Source of the DNA: Lachnospiraceae bacterium
Lineage (GTDB): Bacteria > Bacillota > Clostridia > Lachnospirales > Lachnospiraceae
DNA length: 64,000 nt
Assembly: GCA_016286555.1 (NCBI GenBank)
Contig: JAEETA010000011.1
Location: 1-64,000 of the forward strand
Direction of reading: 5' to 3'
The notes below the pieces were generated by a model. It did no database searches. It saw nothing but the letters and a program-made list of their open reading frames with translations, and was not told where the DNA came from. Below are positions 1,935 to 54,641 of the stretch, in pieces; the first letter of the stretch is position 1; each line of letters opens with the position of its first letter. Made by a program: the position numbers and the translations under genes.

Positions 1935-2246
1935 TTACTCTTTGCTTCCTGCCTCCGGAAGGATGATCTTGGGCTTGTCTCTGTCGGGCTTGTACAGAAC
2001 GATCTTGCGTCCGATGACCTGCACCGTGGTGGATCTGGTGCGCTCGGACACCATGATGGCCAGCTCTTTGGGTTCGTCTTCACAGTTCTTGAGGACATTG
2101 ATCTTCAGCAGCTCGTTTTTGCCGAAATACTCGTCAATGGCTTTTACCATCTCGGGCGTCAGACCGGACTTTCCGAAGGAAAATGCGGGCTCCAGCTTGC
2201 TTGCCAGACTCTTCAGATAAGAACGCTGTTTGCTGGTTAAATTCAT
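1935..2246 (-). CDS. yhbY: YhbY/CRM-domain RNA-binding protein
   Basis: LTSKQRSYLKSLASKLEPAFSFGKSGLTPEMVKAIDEYFGKNELLKINVLKNC. Confidence 0.95.
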   Translation of the reverse strand: MNLTSKQRSYLKSLASKLEPAFSFGKSGLTPEMVKAIDEYFGKNELLKINVLKNCEDEPKELAIMVSERTRSTTVQVIGRKIVLYKPDRDKPKIILPEAGSKE

Positions 2247-2299
2247 ATATCTTCTCCATGCGTTCGAAAAAACGGCATATCAATGCGTTATTTCGAAAA

Positions 2300-11821: not shown

Positions 11822-11889
11822 CTACTACAATTAATTTCTCCGGTGCTTTTCCTTTGTTGGAAATAAATATTTCAAATCAGCGGGTGAAT

Positions 11890-12023
11890 GGCATAGATCC
11901 GTGTGAGGACTATGTTTTCCCGTCGGTGCTTAGCGAGACAGCGACTTTCGTCGTCTGTCGAGCTTAGCATCCGTTACGTGGAAAACCGTAAGCGGAAGCG
12001 TGTCCGAACACGAATACTATGCC
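11890..12023. repeat. ~134-nt nested inverted-repeat element / candidate structured RNA
   Basis: Arms pair in order: GGCATAG/CTATGCC, CGTGT/ACACG, GGAC/GTCC, GTTTTCC/GGAAAAC, CGG/CCG, TGCTtAGC/GCTtAGCA, GACAGCGAC/GTCGtCTGTC around a TTTC loop. Confidence 0.6.
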
Positions 12024-12057
12024 GTGAACACGCGTCACTTAGTAACCTTTTATTCAA

Positions 12058-15931: not shown

Positions 15932-15970
15932 TGAAATGTGATTTGGTGCTTCGCACCAAATCACATTTCA
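15932..15970. repeat. Perfect 18-bp hairpin overlapping the PBP2 stop codon
   Basis: TGAAATGTGATTTGGTGC-ttc-GCACCAAATCACATTTCA; the PBP2 stop (15961-15963 complement) is inside one arm. Confidence 0.9.
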
Positions 15971-18867
15971 TTGGTGACGCCGGCATCAGGTGTATCCGCA
16001 GTACCTGTGATGAGTTCGTCGGTGTCTGCAAGCCCATAATAGTACTTAATGATATCCCTGGAGATCTGTGCCGCATAGTCCGAGGAGTATCCGAAAGGTA
16101 CTCTCGTTGCCATGGCAATCTCAGGGGTATCCGCAGGTGCATAGCAGATAAACAATGCGTGGTTCGGCCTGTTACGGATCTGCTCTGCGGTACCGGTCTT
16201 GCCTGCTACTTCTACTGCCAGATCCGAGAAATAGGACTTGTTCTGTACCACCATTCTCATACCGTTGTGGATGATGTCCCAGTACTCCTGCGGAAGGTTT
16301 ACGGTGCTGTGAACCTGCGGTTCACGGATGGTCAGGATATTTCCTGCGGGATCCGTGGTGTGATCCAGCAATGTCAGATCGTAGCAGGTGCCGGAATTGG
16401 CGATTGTGGCCGCATATCTGGCCAACTGCGTTGTGGTATAGCTGTTGGTACCCTGTCCGATGGCGGAACGGACTGCGTCGGAGTCCGATACATCGGGGGA
16501 ATACTCGGTGATCTCCACGCCGGACTTTTCCGTAAGGCCGTAGAGATCAGCGTACTCATAAAGCTTGTTCAGACCCAGGGAGTCGTTGTAGCTGCCGTCA
16601 TTTGCGGTGGCCAGCCGGAAGCCCACTTCGTAGAAGAAATAGTTGCAGGAATCCCGGATGGCGGTGACCAGCACCTCGTCTCCGTGGCCGTATCTGCTCC
16701 AGCAACGGGGTGAAGGGGTAATGGATTCAAAGAGGGACACACAGTCAATCTTCGTATCCGGATCGATGACATTATTCATGAGGCCCGCGGAGGCGGAAAC
16801 AATCTTAAAGGTGGATCCGGGGGCCGCCTTGTACTGAGTTGCGAAATTCAGCATGGGGGAGGATTTGTCCGAGATCAGCTGGGCAAAATAATCTGCGTCC
16901 ACGGTATTGGCCATTTTATTGTTGTTATAGCCCGGGTAGGAAACCATGGCCAGGACCTGCCCCGTATGGACATCAGTGATGACCACGGAGGCATTACAGG
17001 GATCCAGCGCCAGCTGCGCCGGTGTCACATCAATGTTGGTGATGCGGTTCATCATGAACTGAAAGGCTGTGAGGGTGCCTGCTTCCAGCGCTTCGATCTC
17101 GCTGACGGGGATCTCGATGGAGTCCTGATCATAGAGCAGGAAACAGATGTCCTTCCCCGTGAGTACATCGTTCATCAGCATGTACTTGAACATCTTCTTC
17201 TGATAGTCGGAAGTGCGATCTGCCAGTCGCATGGTCTCATCACAGAGAGCTTCAAAGATCTCGGAGGAAGTGGCATATTTTTCCTCCATCTTCAGCTTGC
17301 TTGTGTCGATCCAGTTCATTGCGATGCAATAGTCCAGGTACTCGCCCAGGGATATAGTCTCTTCGATGGTCCAGGCCTGGTAGGTGAGATCGTTCACATC
17401 CACCTTCTCCGTCATGATGATGCCGTTTTTGGTTAGAAGGGTGATGATGTTACTTTCGTAGACCTTGTACTCTTCCTCCAGATCGCAGTAGGGTGTCCGA
17501 ACCTCCCGGATCTCGGTGAGCAGCGTCTTGTAGACATTCTCCTTGTAGGAGGAATAGCGTTCGTACACATCCCGCTCGTGAACTTTGGCGTCTTCCGCAC
17601 CGAAGTGGCGATAGTCCAGGATATTATTGTCGATCATGGCAAAATACACATCGTAGATGGGAATCTTGATCTCGGAACTGACGGCCCCGGGAGCATCCTC
17701 CTTGGCATCAATGATCTTCGAGGAGATCAGGCCTGCCAGCTTCTGCTCCAGGATCTCGTAAACGGCGATGGTAAGCCCTCTGTCCAGGGTCAGGTATACG
17801 TCGTTGCCCGCAGTGGGTTCCTGGCGCTCCAGAACGGAGATCACCTTACCGGTGGTATTGACCATAACCCGCTCATATCCCTTGGTTCCCTGCAGGGTGG
17901 ACTCCATATAGCTTTCGATGCCCAGCTTACCCACCACATCGTTGGAGGTGTAGGTGTCCTCAGGCTTTCCTTCCGCAACGGCTGCTTCGTTTAAGGTGAT
18001 GATCTCATCCGAAGAGATTTTTCCGGTATAGCCAAGAACATGGGAAAAATACACAGAATCCTCATACTTACGGATGGTATCCTCTACGATGGTAACGCCG
18101 GGAAGTTCCTCTGCATTTTCCATCAGCACAGCCATGGTCTCATCGGAGATATCGGAAGCCACCACGGTACCGATGTATTTCCGGAAAGCGGTCTGGCTCA
18201 TGGCGTAACGCACATTGATGATCTTCAGCCACATTTCCCGGTCATAGCCTTCTCCCGGCAGCCAGGTGCTCTTTTTGTTCCCCGGTTCTTCGAACTCTCC
18301 CACCGCATAGTGGTAACCGTTGCCGGAATAGCGACTCAGGTACTCCATGATCTCCATGGGGGTGGAGGCCGCTTCCTCGTCCGTCAGTTCATCGGTATAG
18401 ATATGATCGTAGACATCCGCAAGAAAACGCCGCAGAGCAGCGTCCGATACGGAATAGGCAAATTCTCCGTCCTCATCGATATAGATCTTCAAGTCCATAT
18501 TGATGCTGTCCCCGTTTTTCTCGATCATGCGGATCAGGGACTCGATCATGGAATTCAAGGCGGGATTTTTGGAGGAACCGCTTTCGAAGGTATCCTCGAT
18601 CTTCACGGAATAGGCCAGCTGGGAATAGGCCAGGAGATTGCCGTCACGGTCGTAGATATTGCCTCTGGTGGCATCCAGACTGCGGGTCTTCTCCTGCTCC
18701 AGGACAAAATTGTCCAGGTAGGTCTGACCGTTTACAATCTGCAGGTTAAAGCAGCGATGGACCAGAATGCACGCAAGAAAGACCATCCCGATATAAAAGA
18801 TGGTGAGTCTGCTGGTAAATATATTTATGAGTCGCTCTTTAATCTCTTCAAGCACGGCCGATGTCAC
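15961..18867 (-). CDS. Penicillin-binding protein 2 (elongasome transpeptidase), with long insertion
   Basis: N-terminal TM, PBP dimer domain, SxxK PGSTFKIVSA, SCNYFF, AGKTGTAEQI. Confidence 0.95.
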   Translation of the reverse strand: MTSAVLEEIKERLINIFTSRLTIFYIGMVFLACILVHRCFNLQIVNGQTYLDNFVLEQEKTRSLDATRGNIYDRDGNLLAYSQLAYSVKIEDTFESGSSKNPALNSMIESLIRMIEKNGDSINMDLKIYIDEDGEFAYSVSDAALRRFLADVYDHIYTDELTDEEAASTPMEIMEYLSRYSGNGYHYAVGEFEEPGNKKSTWLPGEGYDREMWLKIINVRYAMSQTAFRKYIGTVVASDISDETMAVLMENAEELPGVTIVEDTIRKYEDSVYFSHVLGYTGKISSDEIITLNEAAVAEGKPEDTYTSNDVVGKLGIESYMESTLQGTKGYERVMVNTTGKVISVLERQEPTAGNDVYLTLDRGLTIAVYEILEQKLAGLISSKIIDAKEDAPGAVSSEIKIPIYDVYFAMIDNNILDYRHFGAEDAKVHERDVYERYSSYKENVYKTLLTEIREVRTPYCDLEEEYKVYESNIITLLTKNGIIMTEKVDVNDLTYQAWTIEETISLGEYLDYCIAMNWIDTSKLKMEEKYATSSEIFEALCDETMRLADRTSDYQKKMFKYMLMNDVLTGKDICFLLYDQDSIEIPVSEIEALEAGTLTAFQFMMNRITNIDVTPAQLALDPCNASVVITDVHTGQVLAMVSYPGYNNNKMANTVDADYFAQLISDKSSPMLNFATQYKAAPGSTFKIVSASAGLMNNVIDPDTKIDCVSLFESITPSPRCWSRYGHGDEVLVTAIRDSCNYFFYEVGFRLATANDGSYNDSLGLNKLYEYADLYGLTEKSGVEITEYSPDVSDSDAVRSAIGQGTNSYTTTQLARYAATIANSGTCYDLTLLDHTTDPAGNILTIREPQVHSTVNLPQEYWDIIHNGMRMVVQNKSYFSDLAVEVAGKTGTAEQIRNRPNHALFICYAPADTPEIAMATRVPFGYSSDYAAQISRDIIKYYYGLADTDELITGTADTPDAGVTNEM

Positions 18868-49944: not shown

Positions 49945-51135
49945 ATGCCGAACTTATCTGAACTTGAAAATGCAATACCCGTTGGCCCCCTGAAACTCCT
50001 GGTCCTCCCTTCCATGCAGTACATGGGAGACCGGATCAATCAGTATCTTGCGACCTTCCGCAAGACCGTTCACAACGAAAAGGTCAAAAATGATCCCGCA
50101 TTCCAGGGATACATCGAAAACAACTATATGCTGGACTACTCCATTCCCCGCTTCGGAAGCGGCGAAGGAAAGGGCCAGGTGAACGAAAGCGTCCGCGGTA
50201 AGGATATCTTCATCCTGGTGGATGTGTGCAACCACTCCATCACCTACAACATGAACGGCTTTGAAAATCACATGTCTCCCGACGATCATTACCAGGATCT
50301 GAAGCGTATGATCGCTGCCTGCGACGGCAAAGCGGCACGCATCAATGTGATCATGCCCTTCCTCTATGAGGGCAGACAGCACCGCAGAAGCGGACGGGAA
50401 AGTCTGGATGCGGCCTACGCACTTTCAGAGCTGAAGGATATGGGCATTGACAATTTCATCACCTTTGACGCCCATGATCCAAGAGTTCAGAACTCCACGC
50501 CCATCTCCGGATTTGATAATTTCATGGCTCCTTACCAGTTCATCAAGACTCTGCTGAACAATGAGCCGGATCTGTTGGTGGACCAGGATCACATGGTTGT
50601 CATTTCTCCCGACGAGGGCGCCCTGGACAGAGCCATCTACTTTGCAAATGTGCTGGGTGTGAACACCGGTATGTTCTACAAGCGCAGAGATTACACCAGG
50701 ATCGTTGGCGGTAAGAACCCCATCGTTGCTCATGAATTCCTGGGCGACGATATTGACAGCAAGGATGTGATCATCATCGATGATATGATCTCCTCCGGCG
50801 GTTCAATGCTGGATACCGCAAGACAGCTGAAAGAAATGAACGCCAGACGCGTGTATCTGTGCACCACCTTCGGCCTCTTCACCGACGGTTTGGCAGGCTT
50901 CGACAGCGCTTACGAGAAGGGCTACTTCGATAAGGTCATCACCACCAACCTGACCTATCTGCCTCCTGAGATCTATCACAAGCCTTACTTCCTGGAGGTG
51001 GACATGAGCAAGTTCATCGCCTCCATCATTGACTTTATGAACCATGACGCATCCATGTCTAATGTCATGGACAATACCGATAAGATGCATGCGTTCCTGG
51101 ATGCGTACAACCGTCGCGCAAATTTCGAAATTTAA
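49945..51135 (+). CDS. prs: Ribose-phosphate pyrophosphokinase (long Clostridia-type)
   Basis: YEGRQHRRSGRESLDAAYALSELKDMG, FDAHDPRVQNS, SKDVIIIDDMISSGGSMLDTARQLKE PRPP-binding motif; SD GGAGG. Confidence 0.94.
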   Translation: MPNLSELENAIPVGPLKLLVLPSMQYMGDRINQYLATFRKTVHNEKVKNDPAFQGYIENNYMLDYSIPRFGSGEGKGQVNESVRGKDIFILVDVCNHSITYNMNGFENHMSPDDHYQDLKRMIAACDGKAARINVIMPFLYEGRQHRRSGRESLDAAYALSELKDMGIDNFITFDAHDPRVQNSTPISGFDNFMAPYQFIKTLLNNEPDLLVDQDHMVVISPDEGALDRAIYFANVLGVNTGMFYKRRDYTRIVGGKNPIVAHEFLGDDIDSKDVIIIDDMISSGGSMLDTARQLKEMNARRVYLCTTFGLFTDGLAGFDSAYEKGYFDKVITTNLTYLPPEIYHKPYFLEVDMSKFIASIIDFMNHDASMSNVMDNTDKMHAFLDAYNRRANFEI

Positions 51136-51153
51136 CAAAGTTAAATTTCGAAG

Positions 51154-51258
51154 GCATCCATCATCCTTCGGATGCTGAGATGCATCGCAATATAGCTAAC
51201 GCTGTATTGAGATAGCATTCATCCCCCTACGGGGGCTGTAATGCATCGAAATATAGCT
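51154..51258 (+). repeat. Two tandem 44-nt hairpin-forming units (51154-51197 and 51215-51258) in the prs 3' region
   Basis: GCATCCATCATCCTTCGGATGCTGAGATGCATCGCAATATAGCT and GCATTCATCCCCCTACGGGGGCTGTAATGCATCGAAATATAGCT; gap-free alignment with compensatory differences in stems. Confidence 0.8.
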
Positions 51259-51262
51259 GTCT

Positions 51263-51290
51263 CAGCGGCCCTCAGGGGCCGCTGTTTTAT
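51263..51290 (+). terminator. Intrinsic terminator of prs
   Basis: CAGCGGCCC-tcag-GGGCCGCTG then TTTTATT. Confidence 0.85.
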
Positions 51291-53935
51291 TGCTTCTCTT
51301 CTGTCTCAGGTTCCGAAGCCGGCTCAGGTTCCTCAGGGAAGACCATGGTGACCTTGAATAGGTCACCGTCCACGGAAACGGTAAACTCTCCTCCCTGGAG
51401 CTGGGTGAGGCTTCTTGCGATAAAGAGTCCCAGTCCGCTTCCTTCCGTGGATCTGGATTCATCACCGCGGATAAAGCGTTCCGTCAGCTCTTTGCCCTGC
51501 AGCGTAAAGGGCTTATCTGCCACATTCTTTACGGAAAGCTCTACCTTCCCGTTCTCTTTGTGCACCGTGATATAGACTCTGGTGCCGCTCATGGCGTATT
51601 TGCAAACATTCTGTAGCAGATTGTCCATGATGCGCCAGGTGCGCCTTCCGTCGCCGCGGATGTAGGCCGTATCCAGATGAGTTACCACCAGGGTCAGATC
51701 CTTCTTTGCCAGGTTCTCTTCAAACTCCCCTGCACATTGACGGATCAGCTCCGTCAGGTTCAGATGCACCAGGTTCAGTTCGATATTTCCGGAGGAAATC
51801 TTCGAAGCCTCCAGCAGATCATCCAGCAGGAGCTTCAGTCTTGCGGATTTGTCTGCCAGGATCTGCAGATATCCCGCCTGAGGCTCCTGTTCCATGCCGC
51901 TTCGTTGCAGGAGATCCACGTAATTGATGATGGAAGTGAGGGGCGTCTTCAGATCGTGGGAGACATTGGTGATGAGGTCCGACTTCATCTTCTCGTCACG
52001 CATACTGGTGTTGACGGCACTTTCGATACCTTCACCGATATTGTTCACCGCTTCCGCCAGCAGGGCGTTTTCCGGATTCATAAGCTCTCCGGAGATCTTG
52101 TAATCCACCTCTCCGCCACGGATCCTGCGGATACCGTCCACAATCTCCTTCCGCTCTGCATGACTTCGCACCAGCACCACACCGATGAGGGCATCCACCA
52201 GAACGATGATGATCGCCACCACCACGGCCCAATAGCGGTTGTTAAACCAGAGCTGGATCACGGAGATCACGGCTCCGATGTTGAAAAACAGGAACAGGTT
52301 GTAGGGCAGAATGATACTGAGTCCTGTACTTCTGCTGGTATAAATCCTCCTGTAGATCCGTCGGAACAGTTTGTCCAGGATATACAGGAAAGACCCGCTC
52401 CATAGGGTGTGGCTCTTGATCCTGCGACTCAGTGTCATGGTAAACATGAGAAGCAGCAGGCAGGTACCAAATCCGTATAGTGCGTAGTACTGATAACAGG
52501 TCGTTCCATCAGCAGGATTGTCAATGGAGGAGACATATATCGTCTCCGTTGCCTCCCGCAATACCTGATGAAGATGAAACATCCCCCGTATCGCAAAGAA
52601 ATATATCACCAGAACAGTTTCAATAAAGAGATGGTCCAGCGGCATTTTGTAATACCGGATCTCTCCGTCGTCACTTACGTAGCGACCGGTTTCAAAGATC
52701 AGGTAAACAAAGAACAAAAACCAGAGCATTACCAGGATCAGCAGACCCACCAGATAGTATTTGATCTGGGCGCGAATGGCATTATACTGATCGGAAACAG
52801 CACGGAAGGAATCATCCGCCTGCATGTCCAGATCCACATACATCCAGACTTTGGTATCCGCCGGATAAACAGAGGACCAGACTCGCATCTGATGATCCAG
52901 ATTGCTGACATCTACGTCAGAAAGTCCGTTGTACTCATAGGTTTGCCGGTAATAGATGAGGGACTGCAGATTTTCGGAAAAGACCTCGGTGAGCCCTTCT
53001 TCCGAGACGCCGTCATAATCAGGCTCGTTGGTATCAAAGAGAACCTCGCCGTCATTTTCGGTGCGGATCACATAGATCAGATTGGAATTATCTTCGGAAA
53101 AATGATGCTTCCCATTGGTATAGATCCGGTGGATCTCATACAGTTCCGACACACATTTTTCCAGATTTCGCTGAAGCTTGGCAAAATCCACCCAGTTATC
53201 ACAGACCTGGGTAAGAGAACGCTTTCCCAGAGCCGTGGTGCAGCGCATATCCAATACCGTTACCAGAATGCCGGGATCCTCTTCGGAATCCAGCACCGTG
53301 ATGTAGTCGGGGCATTCCGTCAGGATATAGTTCAGTACTGCCTTCTGGATAGTGGCAAAGCCCACTCCGTTTTTCATCATGCGATTCTGCAGGCCGGGAT
53401 CAATGCCGTTGAAGGCGCGGTCCACTCTGCGGAACCCCAGGAAGGTGACACTGTCACTTCCGTCGATCTGAAAATTGTCCAGGAAATAGATGTTGCCGAA
53501 ATAGGTCAGGAAATCGTTAAGTGACATGCGAACTTCCGAGAAATCCGCACCGAATCGGCCCCATTTCACCAGATCATCAAGGAAGAATGTGACATCGATG
53601 TCGCAATCGTCCGGAAGTCCGGTTTCCACAGCATACTGATTGATGTGGAACTGCCGCTTGGGAAGGTACAGGCCCTGGCTCTCAATGATGCGTTTCGCCG
53701 CAACATAGCTCACCACATCTTCCGCATTGCGGGAAAAGAGGTCATCAAAGATCTCCGTGTCCGCAAAATCTCTGGAGGATCGCATGGGATCCAGAAAATA
53801 GGTTTTGTCCTCATCCAGGTAGGAAACACGGATAAAAGAATTTATGATCAAGCTGCCGACGAGGGCTGCAATGATTGCCGCTAAAAACAAACATGCAAGA
53901 CCGCCCGCCAGATTGGTCCATCTGGCTTTTTTCAT
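51287..53935 (-). CDS. Sensor histidine kinase with large extracytoplasmic region
   Basis: H-box LITNVSHDLKTPLTSIINYVDLL, HATPase GSGLGLFIARSL; multiple TMs. Confidence 0.94.
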   Translation of the reverse strand: MKKARWTNLAGGLACLFLAAIIAALVGSLIINSFIRVSYLDEDKTYFLDPMRSSRDFADTEIFDDLFSRNAEDVVSYVAAKRIIESQGLYLPKRQFHINQYAVETGLPDDCDIDVTFFLDDLVKWGRFGADFSEVRMSLNDFLTYFGNIYFLDNFQIDGSDSVTFLGFRRVDRAFNGIDPGLQNRMMKNGVGFATIQKAVLNYILTECPDYITVLDSEEDPGILVTVLDMRCTTALGKRSLTQVCDNWVDFAKLQRNLEKCVSELYEIHRIYTNGKHHFSEDNSNLIYVIRTENDGEVLFDTNEPDYDGVSEEGLTEVFSENLQSLIYYRQTYEYNGLSDVDVSNLDHQMRVWSSVYPADTKVWMYVDLDMQADDSFRAVSDQYNAIRAQIKYYLVGLLILVMLWFLFFVYLIFETGRYVSDDGEIRYYKMPLDHLFIETVLVIYFFAIRGMFHLHQVLREATETIYVSSIDNPADGTTCYQYYALYGFGTCLLLLMFTMTLSRRIKSHTLWSGSFLYILDKLFRRIYRRIYTSRSTGLSIILPYNLFLFFNIGAVISVIQLWFNNRYWAVVVAIIIVLVDALIGVVLVRSHAERKEIVDGIRRIRGGEVDYKISGELMNPENALLAEAVNNIGEGIESAVNTSMRDEKMKSDLITNVSHDLKTPLTSIINYVDLLQRSGMEQEPQAGYLQILADKSARLKLLLDDLLEASKISSGNIELNLVHLNLTELIRQCAGEFEENLAKKDLTLVVTHLDTAYIRGDGRRTWRIMDNLLQNVCKYAMSGTRVYITVHKENGKVELSVKNVADKPFTLQGKELTERFIRGDESRSTEGSGLGLFIARSLTQLQGGEFTVSVDGDLFKVTMVFPEEPEPASEPETEEKQ

Positions 53936-53948
53936 ACGCTGTTATGTA

Positions 53949-54641
53949 TCAGTTCTCCTGATCGATCTTGTAGCCTACGCCCCACACTACCTTCAGGTAT
54001 TTGGGCTCCTTGGGATTGATCTCGATCTTCTCCCGGATGTGACGGATATGAACCGCAACGGTATTTTCCGCACCGAAGGCGCTCTCGTTCCAGATCTTTT
54101 CATAGATCTCATCCGTGGAAAATACGATACCCTGATTTTTCATCAGGAGCAGCAGGATGCTGTATTCAATGGGCGTTAGTTTGATAGGATCCCCGTCCAC
54201 CGTCACCTGCTTGGAATCGTCATTGATCACCAGGCCGCCGGTCTTGTAGATGCTGTCATCATCCTTCAGGCTTCCCAGGGACGTGTATCTGCGCAGGGCG
54301 GACTTAACTCTGGCCACCAGCTCCAGGGGATGGAAGGGCTTGGTGATATAATCATCCGCCCCGATGTTCAGTCCCAGGATCTTATCCGTGTCCTCGGACT
54401 TGGCGGAAAGGATCAGAATGGGAATGGAACTCTTCTCCCGCAGCTTCATGATGGTATGGATCCCGTCCAGCTTCGGCATCATCAGGTCGATGAGCAGGAG
54501 TTGCACGTCTTCCTTTGCCAGGATCTCCAGAGCCTCCTCGCCGTCGTAAGCCTTCAGGATCCTGTGATTTTCCTGAGACAGATATATTTCGATCGCATCC
54601 ACGATCTCGTGATCGTCGTCACATACCAGTATAGTAGCCAT
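53949..54641 (-). CDS. OmpR-family response regulator
   Basis: ILVCDDDHEIVDAI, LLLIDLMMPKLDG, ADDYITKPFHPLELVARV; winged-helix C-terminus. Confidence 0.95.
   Translation of the reverse strand: MATILVCDDDHEIVDAIEIYLSQENHRILKAYDGEEALEILAKEDVQLLLIDLMMPKLDGIHTIMKLREKSSIPILILSAKSEDTDKILGLNIGADDYITKPFHPLELVARVKSALRRYTSLGSLKDDDSIYKTGGLVINDDSKQVTVDGDPIKLTPIEYSILLLLMKNQGIVFSTDEIYEKIWNESAFGAENTVAVHIRHIREKIEINPKEPKYLKVVWGVGYKIDQEN

Follow-up and report, generated by a model that had tools for sequence, protein, structure and literature searches.

The analyzed window (a stretch of 64,000 nucleotides) originates from the MAG of an uncultured Lachnospiraceae bacterium (2.93 Mb, 83 contigs, 90% complete), whose relatives in public collections are mostly rumen and gut Lachnospiraceae. 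In this window the 3'UTR of prs, the gene for ribose-phosphate diphosphokinase, holds a row of five hairpins, which lie over the prs stop codon, in a first unit (A), in a linker, in a second unit (B), and in the terminator (Table 1). The end of prs at 51135 and the end of a histidine kinase gene at 51287 are 151 bases apart, and since the kinase gene ends there on the opposite strand, this gap represents the 3' end of two convergent transcripts. As a side observation, 24 of 26 bases are common to the response-regulator gene of the convergent pair (54573-54598, minus strand) and the end of unit B (51241-51266, plus strand); this likeness is probably due to chance, as shuffles of the 3'UTR give comparable scores.

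Table 1. Features of the prs locus and of the window discussed in the text (positions within the window).
Feature	Positions	Strand	Evidence
Copy of the dispersed gamma-alpha-beta element	2202-2298	-	
prs, ribose-phosphate diphosphokinase	49945-51135	+	NCBIfam NF005299, E 2.9e-168; Pfam Pribosyltran_N and Pribosyltran
Stop-codon hairpin, TTCGAAATTTAAC aaa GTTAAATTTCGAA	51123-51153	+	Inverted repeat, 100% complementary; pair probability 1.0
Hairpin A, first unit	51154-51183	+	Fold; pair probability 0.99
Linker hairpin, ATC.CAATATAGC-TAAC-GCTGTATTG.GAT	51184-51213	+	Suboptimal folds, pair probabilities, DNA fold
Hairpin B, second unit, period 61	51215-51244	+	Direct repeat; three compensated pairs relative to A
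Second flank copy, ATCGAAATATAGCT	51245-51258	+	13 of 14 bases identical to 51184-51197
Intrinsic terminator of prs, 9-bp stem (51263-51284) followed by TTTTATT	51263-51291	+	Terminator scan
Histidine kinase gene, convergent, ending at the array	51287-53935	-	HisKA and HATPase_c
OmpR-type response regulator, first gene of the convergent pair	53949-54641	-	Response_reg and Trans_reg_C

The predicted RNA fold of the region 51120-51300 reaches -80.2 kcal/mol, compared with -43.4 +/- 4.2 kcal/mol in dinucleotide shuffles (z -8.7; matched by 0 of 200 shuffles), and the array is the top-scoring 160-nt stretch in a fold scan of the whole window. Its first hairpin, with 13 perfect pairs and a left arm formed by the last prs codons and the stop codon, is an addition to the sequence-only reading from which this analysis departed; the idea that it might be a further tandem copy of the linker was rejected (shuffle fractions 0.03 to 0.34). 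The terminator that had been placed behind the two units was confirmed by the terminator scan. For the linker, both of the pairings that had been proposed exist among the computed folds, namely the hairpin CAATATAGC-TAAC-GCTGTATTG and a competing helix between GCTGTATT and the second AATATAGC: the right arm is predicted to pair either with its own left arm (probability 0.21) or with sequence after B (0.79), in the latter case as 51201-51208 with 51250-51257, within the second flank copy. These two predicted pairings are nearly iso-energetic (suboptimal folds 0.8 kcal/mol apart), and the DNA fold prefers the linker hairpin. The terminator stem forms in both linker folds (probability 0.97-1.0), and thus no termination switch is indicated.

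Units A and B are as originally read with respect to sequence, coordinates, and 61-nt period, and they belong to a direct repeat of 53 nt (51145-51197 and 51206-51258). The paired character of their stem differences also stands: 8 of the 30 hairpin positions differ, and six of these make up three complete Watson-Crick exchanges (C-G to T-A, A-T to C-G, and T-A to C-G, from A to B), with no pair broken. The existence of the hairpin is upheld, and its shape is corrected: the pairs number 5+2+5, there is one U-C mismatch and one single-base bulge, each at the same position in both units, and the triloop reads UUC in A and UAC in B. When eight random substitutions were placed on A, an equal or better compensation was obtained in 22 of 200,000 trials, the tested structure in this case being derived from A and B themselves.

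An independent instance of the hairpin is found in a sister species (G010, public isolate RUI526; prs protein 97% identical), which carries a single A/B-like hairpin in its prs 3'UTR, at the same place as the array. It aligns with B better than 3000 of 3000 shuffles, and its alignment with A is matched or beaten by 10 of 3000; of the 12 pairs it retains 9, and its energetically preferred fold is slightly shifted in register. The stop-codon hairpin, in the form seen here, is absent from this species. In the alignment of the three sequences (A, B, and the G010 hairpin), which is too small for a formal test, 91.7% of the cells are paired. Two-sided changes occur at three pairs, among them one found as A-U, C-G, and G-C, and shifting the partners leaves no two-sided change and at most 39% paired. 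A pair-count control lends modest support, the observed values being reached by 10 to 27 of 500 shuffles. The hairpins of the array are genuine and have retained their shape through changes of sequence; in this respect the structured 3'UTR, one of three identities offered in the sequence-only reading, is borne out by pairing that is maintained between A, B, and the orthologous sister hairpin.

With respect to distribution, no Rfam 15 family reaches the gathering threshold anywhere in the window, and matches under relaxed settings stay far below it (best sbrA, 21.7 vs. 45 bits), in agreement with the initial impression that the element has no name. Whole-genome blastn, pattern, and covariance-model searches found no second locus in the genome. 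Among 31 genomes of the genus, only the G010 prs hairpin resembles the array (16 bits), apart from one match at chance level; in the next nearest relative (G019) the prs 3'UTR has no A/B-like hairpin. Among 397 sampled Lachnospiraceae we found no credible match to the array, and none beyond chance in other genera; the best outside match (28 bits with model R1) lies inside a coding gene and is no more than chance would yield in a search of 397 genomes. Prs loci further away in relationship mostly end in a plain terminator only, and the essential prs genes of relatives manage without the array. Thus, the homologue search that had been suggested yielded one homologue and none further, close to no further homologues at all, and the array is restricted to one small lineage. 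The simplest history, as judged from these sequences, would begin with one hairpin in an ancestor shared by the two species and continue with a 61-base tandem duplication in the species analyzed here.

This distribution bears directly on a DNA-level identity of the array, i.e., a REP/BIME-like palindrome, an insertion-sequence end, or a recombination site. The row does fold as single-stranded DNA (z -9.0) as well as on the other RNA strand (z -7.0), and it is palindromic, extragenic, and built of tandem units (two, with a 61-nt period), as are BIME/REP and the pneumococcal BOX, RUP, and SPRITE elements. Those elements, however, are dispersed in many copies per genome (PMC10969869), whereas the prs array has no other copy in its own genome, no match in a plasmid collection, and only chance-level matches in a phage database (likewise, three matches of a 17-base pattern in viral contigs do not exceed the chance expectation for a collection of that size). 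Parts of a survey of bacterial stem-loop repeat families (PMC2267715) describe 92 families in 40 genomes, with many copies each, and name Bacillus, Clostridium, Enterococcus, Lactobacillus, Staphylococcus, and Streptococcus as the Firmicutes; the prs array is, like the families described there, structured, extragenic, and possibly acting at the RNA level, but it is not many-copy. An iterated palindromic repeat in the REP sense, the second of the identities offered at the outset, was therefore dropped, no other copy occurring in the genome or the genus except for the sister hairpin, and the missing copies leave a DNA-level element of any of these kinds close to refuted.

A different question is whether the pairing was kept by selection. 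In a serious rival explanation, which we consider possible though rather unlikely, the array is a mutational product without a selected function: template switching by DNA polymerase at short inverted repeats would have made the hairpin over the stop codon and would maintain the complementarity of the arms in A and B, the second unit having arisen by tandem duplication. Template switching has been described as a one-step source of perfect hairpins and of compensated changes (PMC8794818) and as homogenizing short inverted-repeat arms (PMC8604942), and the prs locus resembles such cases both in a perfect inverse copy beside existing sequence and in its compensated changes. Indeed, the hairpin over the stop codon repeats the prs coding end exactly in inverse orientation, a form that the sister lacks. 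Of the three compensated pairs, two are neighbors, and at the remaining pair position A, B, and G010 differ by transversion-type exchanges. One compensated position (A-T, C-G, G-C) is unable to change via G-U, which fits template switching better than slow selection. Whole-arm homogenization, on the other hand, would tend to erase the mismatch and the bulge that are conserved in A and B, and the loops of the two units, in contrast to those of template-switch hairpins, are not inverted relative to each other, in a comparison where three sequences are too few to reconstruct single events.

The interpretation that we favor, tentatively and at a likelihood somewhat short of even, is a structured prs 3'UTR that was enlarged by tandem duplication and serves as a 3' barrier between two convergent transcripts. 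In the proposed course of events, an ancestral single hairpin of the prs 3'UTR would have been duplicated in tandem together with its flank at a period of 61, after which the stems would drift by paired changes; the stacked hairpins would slow 3'-to-5' exonucleases on the prs mRNA and separate the two convergent transcripts, and such a barrier would act without a sequence-specific partner. The nearly iso-energetic linker pairings would then be a by-product of the duplication and not a switch. Hairpins stacked in front of a terminator are the classic barrier to 3' exonucleases, with the REP sequences in malEF and the cry1A retroregulator as examples. The prs array resembles these cases in having stable hairpins between the stop codon and the terminator, as a barrier requires, directly upstream of a good intrinsic terminator, and by this analogy its position would likewise be expected to block 3' exonucleases; it differs from them in being locus-specific and confined to two species, and its barrier role is a prediction. 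We infer by analogy that the array is probably a 3'-end barrier between the convergent transcripts.

The third identity offered at the outset, a 3'UTR-derived small RNA released from the prs mRNA and acting on other transcripts, appears very unlikely. A strongly structured mRNA 3' end with its own terminator would suit such an RNA, but its sequence is mostly locked in stems, no promoter-like plus-strand site was seen in the region, and what is conserved, in two species only, is a hairpin and not an unpaired seed.

A survey of intergenic hairpins (approximately 0.76 Mb of this genome and 0.2 Mb of each of two relatives) showed that gaps with at least three hairpins are uncommon in this genome (4 of 241; the prs gap, overlapped by a spurious reading frame, escapes this count). 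A single dispersed three-hairpin element (gamma, alpha, and beta) accounts for several of the multi-hairpin gaps, with loci in this genome and the sister species (G000 and G010, L209-L235) and in other genera (L237-L255). The gamma model (R2) detects about 12 clear copies here and about 17 in the sister species, and none of the remaining 29 genomes of the genus gives a strong match; the full model (R3) gives 15 and 24 matches in this genome and the sister, respectively, and a few in four further members of the genus, and at E <= 0.001 it detects the element in 45 of the 397 sampled Lachnospiraceae genomes, in many of them in several copies. Outside the genus the element measures about 150 bases and includes a pseudoknot in which the alpha loop pairs with bases immediately preceding the ribosome-binding site; in the corresponding alignment 43 pairs are 97.5% kept and show 18 two-sided changes, with shifted controls below 50%. 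The element is absent from Rfam, which was searched for it. Its copies lie between genes, end at a ribosome-binding site, and precede genes that are unrelated to one another (cysS, argF, a TrpX-like transporter gene, hslO, glpK, mnmG, and others), and most of those in distant genera lie 143-147 bases before the start codon. Several copies (L209, L222, L235, L240, L247, and L254) are flanked on either side by a direct repeat, 8 to 28 bases long, that holds the Shine-Dalgarno sequence (at L209, CTCGGTGAGGAGGAT is found on both sides), which, from the sequences, looks like a target-site duplication in the ribosome-binding site, and the family as a whole has the appearance of a BOX/MITE-like element that is, or once was, mobile. 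An inversion of the gamma-hairpin loop between relatives, considered as proof of template switching, was apparent only, the copies being listed on opposite strands. In many copies (L209, L213, L215, L217, L221, L222, and L224) gamma starts with a very short reading frame (MFEKSH, MFERKR, or LFEKTH) that follows GGAGG or overlaps the upstream stop codon as TAATG; in other genera the gamma start reads GTG-TGA.

The array could itself be an aberrant, strongly diverged copy of this undescribed, pseudoknot-bearing element, with its alpha-beta part duplicated again, an origin that we regard as unlikely. Both have three consecutive hairpins starting from a stop codon, and the same two species carry many element copies as well as the prs hairpins. 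On model R3, the stretch 51123-51222 reaches 28.4 bits (E 7e-6 for the window), with the three hairpins in the right order and spacing, compared with 30.2 bits for the clear copy in the window, 9.9 for the next match, and 13.0 and 13.8 for hairpin-rich control stretches; this score rewards three hairpins at the right spacing regardless of their letters. A sequence-only profile (nhmmer), by contrast, detects the 2259-2297 copy (E 2e-7) and nothing at prs. Of the signature sequences of the element, only the gamma-stem TTCGAAA/TTTCGAA is present at 51100-51300, where the UGAU loop with its bulged C and the alpha (CARTTTG/CAAAYTG) and beta (GAGAAA/TTTCTC) stems are absent. In addition, the array is not followed by a ribosome-binding site and start codon, the downstream gene being convergent; the alpha pairing required by R3 conflicts with hairpin A; and the orthologous G010 prs 3'UTR scores 4.8 bits on the same model. 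Filing the array under the dispersed family on R3 alone was thus rejected, and, as the sequence tests failed, the array is kept as a locus-specific structure that resembles the family in form.

Other structured stretches were encountered along the way. This genome contains a second tandem hairpin array (L157 3090-3245, G000:C32; period 80), which alternates two hairpin types and adjoins a tRNA gene, as well as a pair of long hairpins (L161 1036-1190, G000:C70 65036-65190) that have unrelated stems but carry 20-base loops exactly reverse-complementary to each other, the loop having no other occurrence in the genome. In the sister species, a row of long hairpins (L190 15655-16025, G010:C16) has a common 17-base loop, once inverted, on stems that differ completely between units, and another relative (G011) has non-coding tandem hairpin arrays at L197 5092-5310, L198 16298-16587, and L201 18744-19021 (periods 62, 73, and 73), each built on a different stem sequence. 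Within the window, the intergenic stretch 11860-12040 has a strong and complex predicted fold and no Rfam match, and may possibly be an unnamed structured RNA; a 17-bp perfect hairpin with a TTCG loop (15933-15974) overlaps the stop codon of the minus-strand frame 15961-18867.

Overall, the prs array provides a clean, small example of an mRNA 3' end that grows by hairpin duplication with its pairing kept, and it raises the question of whether selection or template switching is the keeper of the pairs. Should it be an aberrant copy of the dispersed element after all, it would record the decay of such an element and the multiplication of its modules behind a gene, where it has no start codon to serve. 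The gamma-alpha-beta element, which is multi-copy and structured, contains a covarying pseudoknot, is missing from Rfam, and stands before start codons in approximately one of every nine sampled Lachnospiraceae genomes, may matter more than the array and merits a study of its own.
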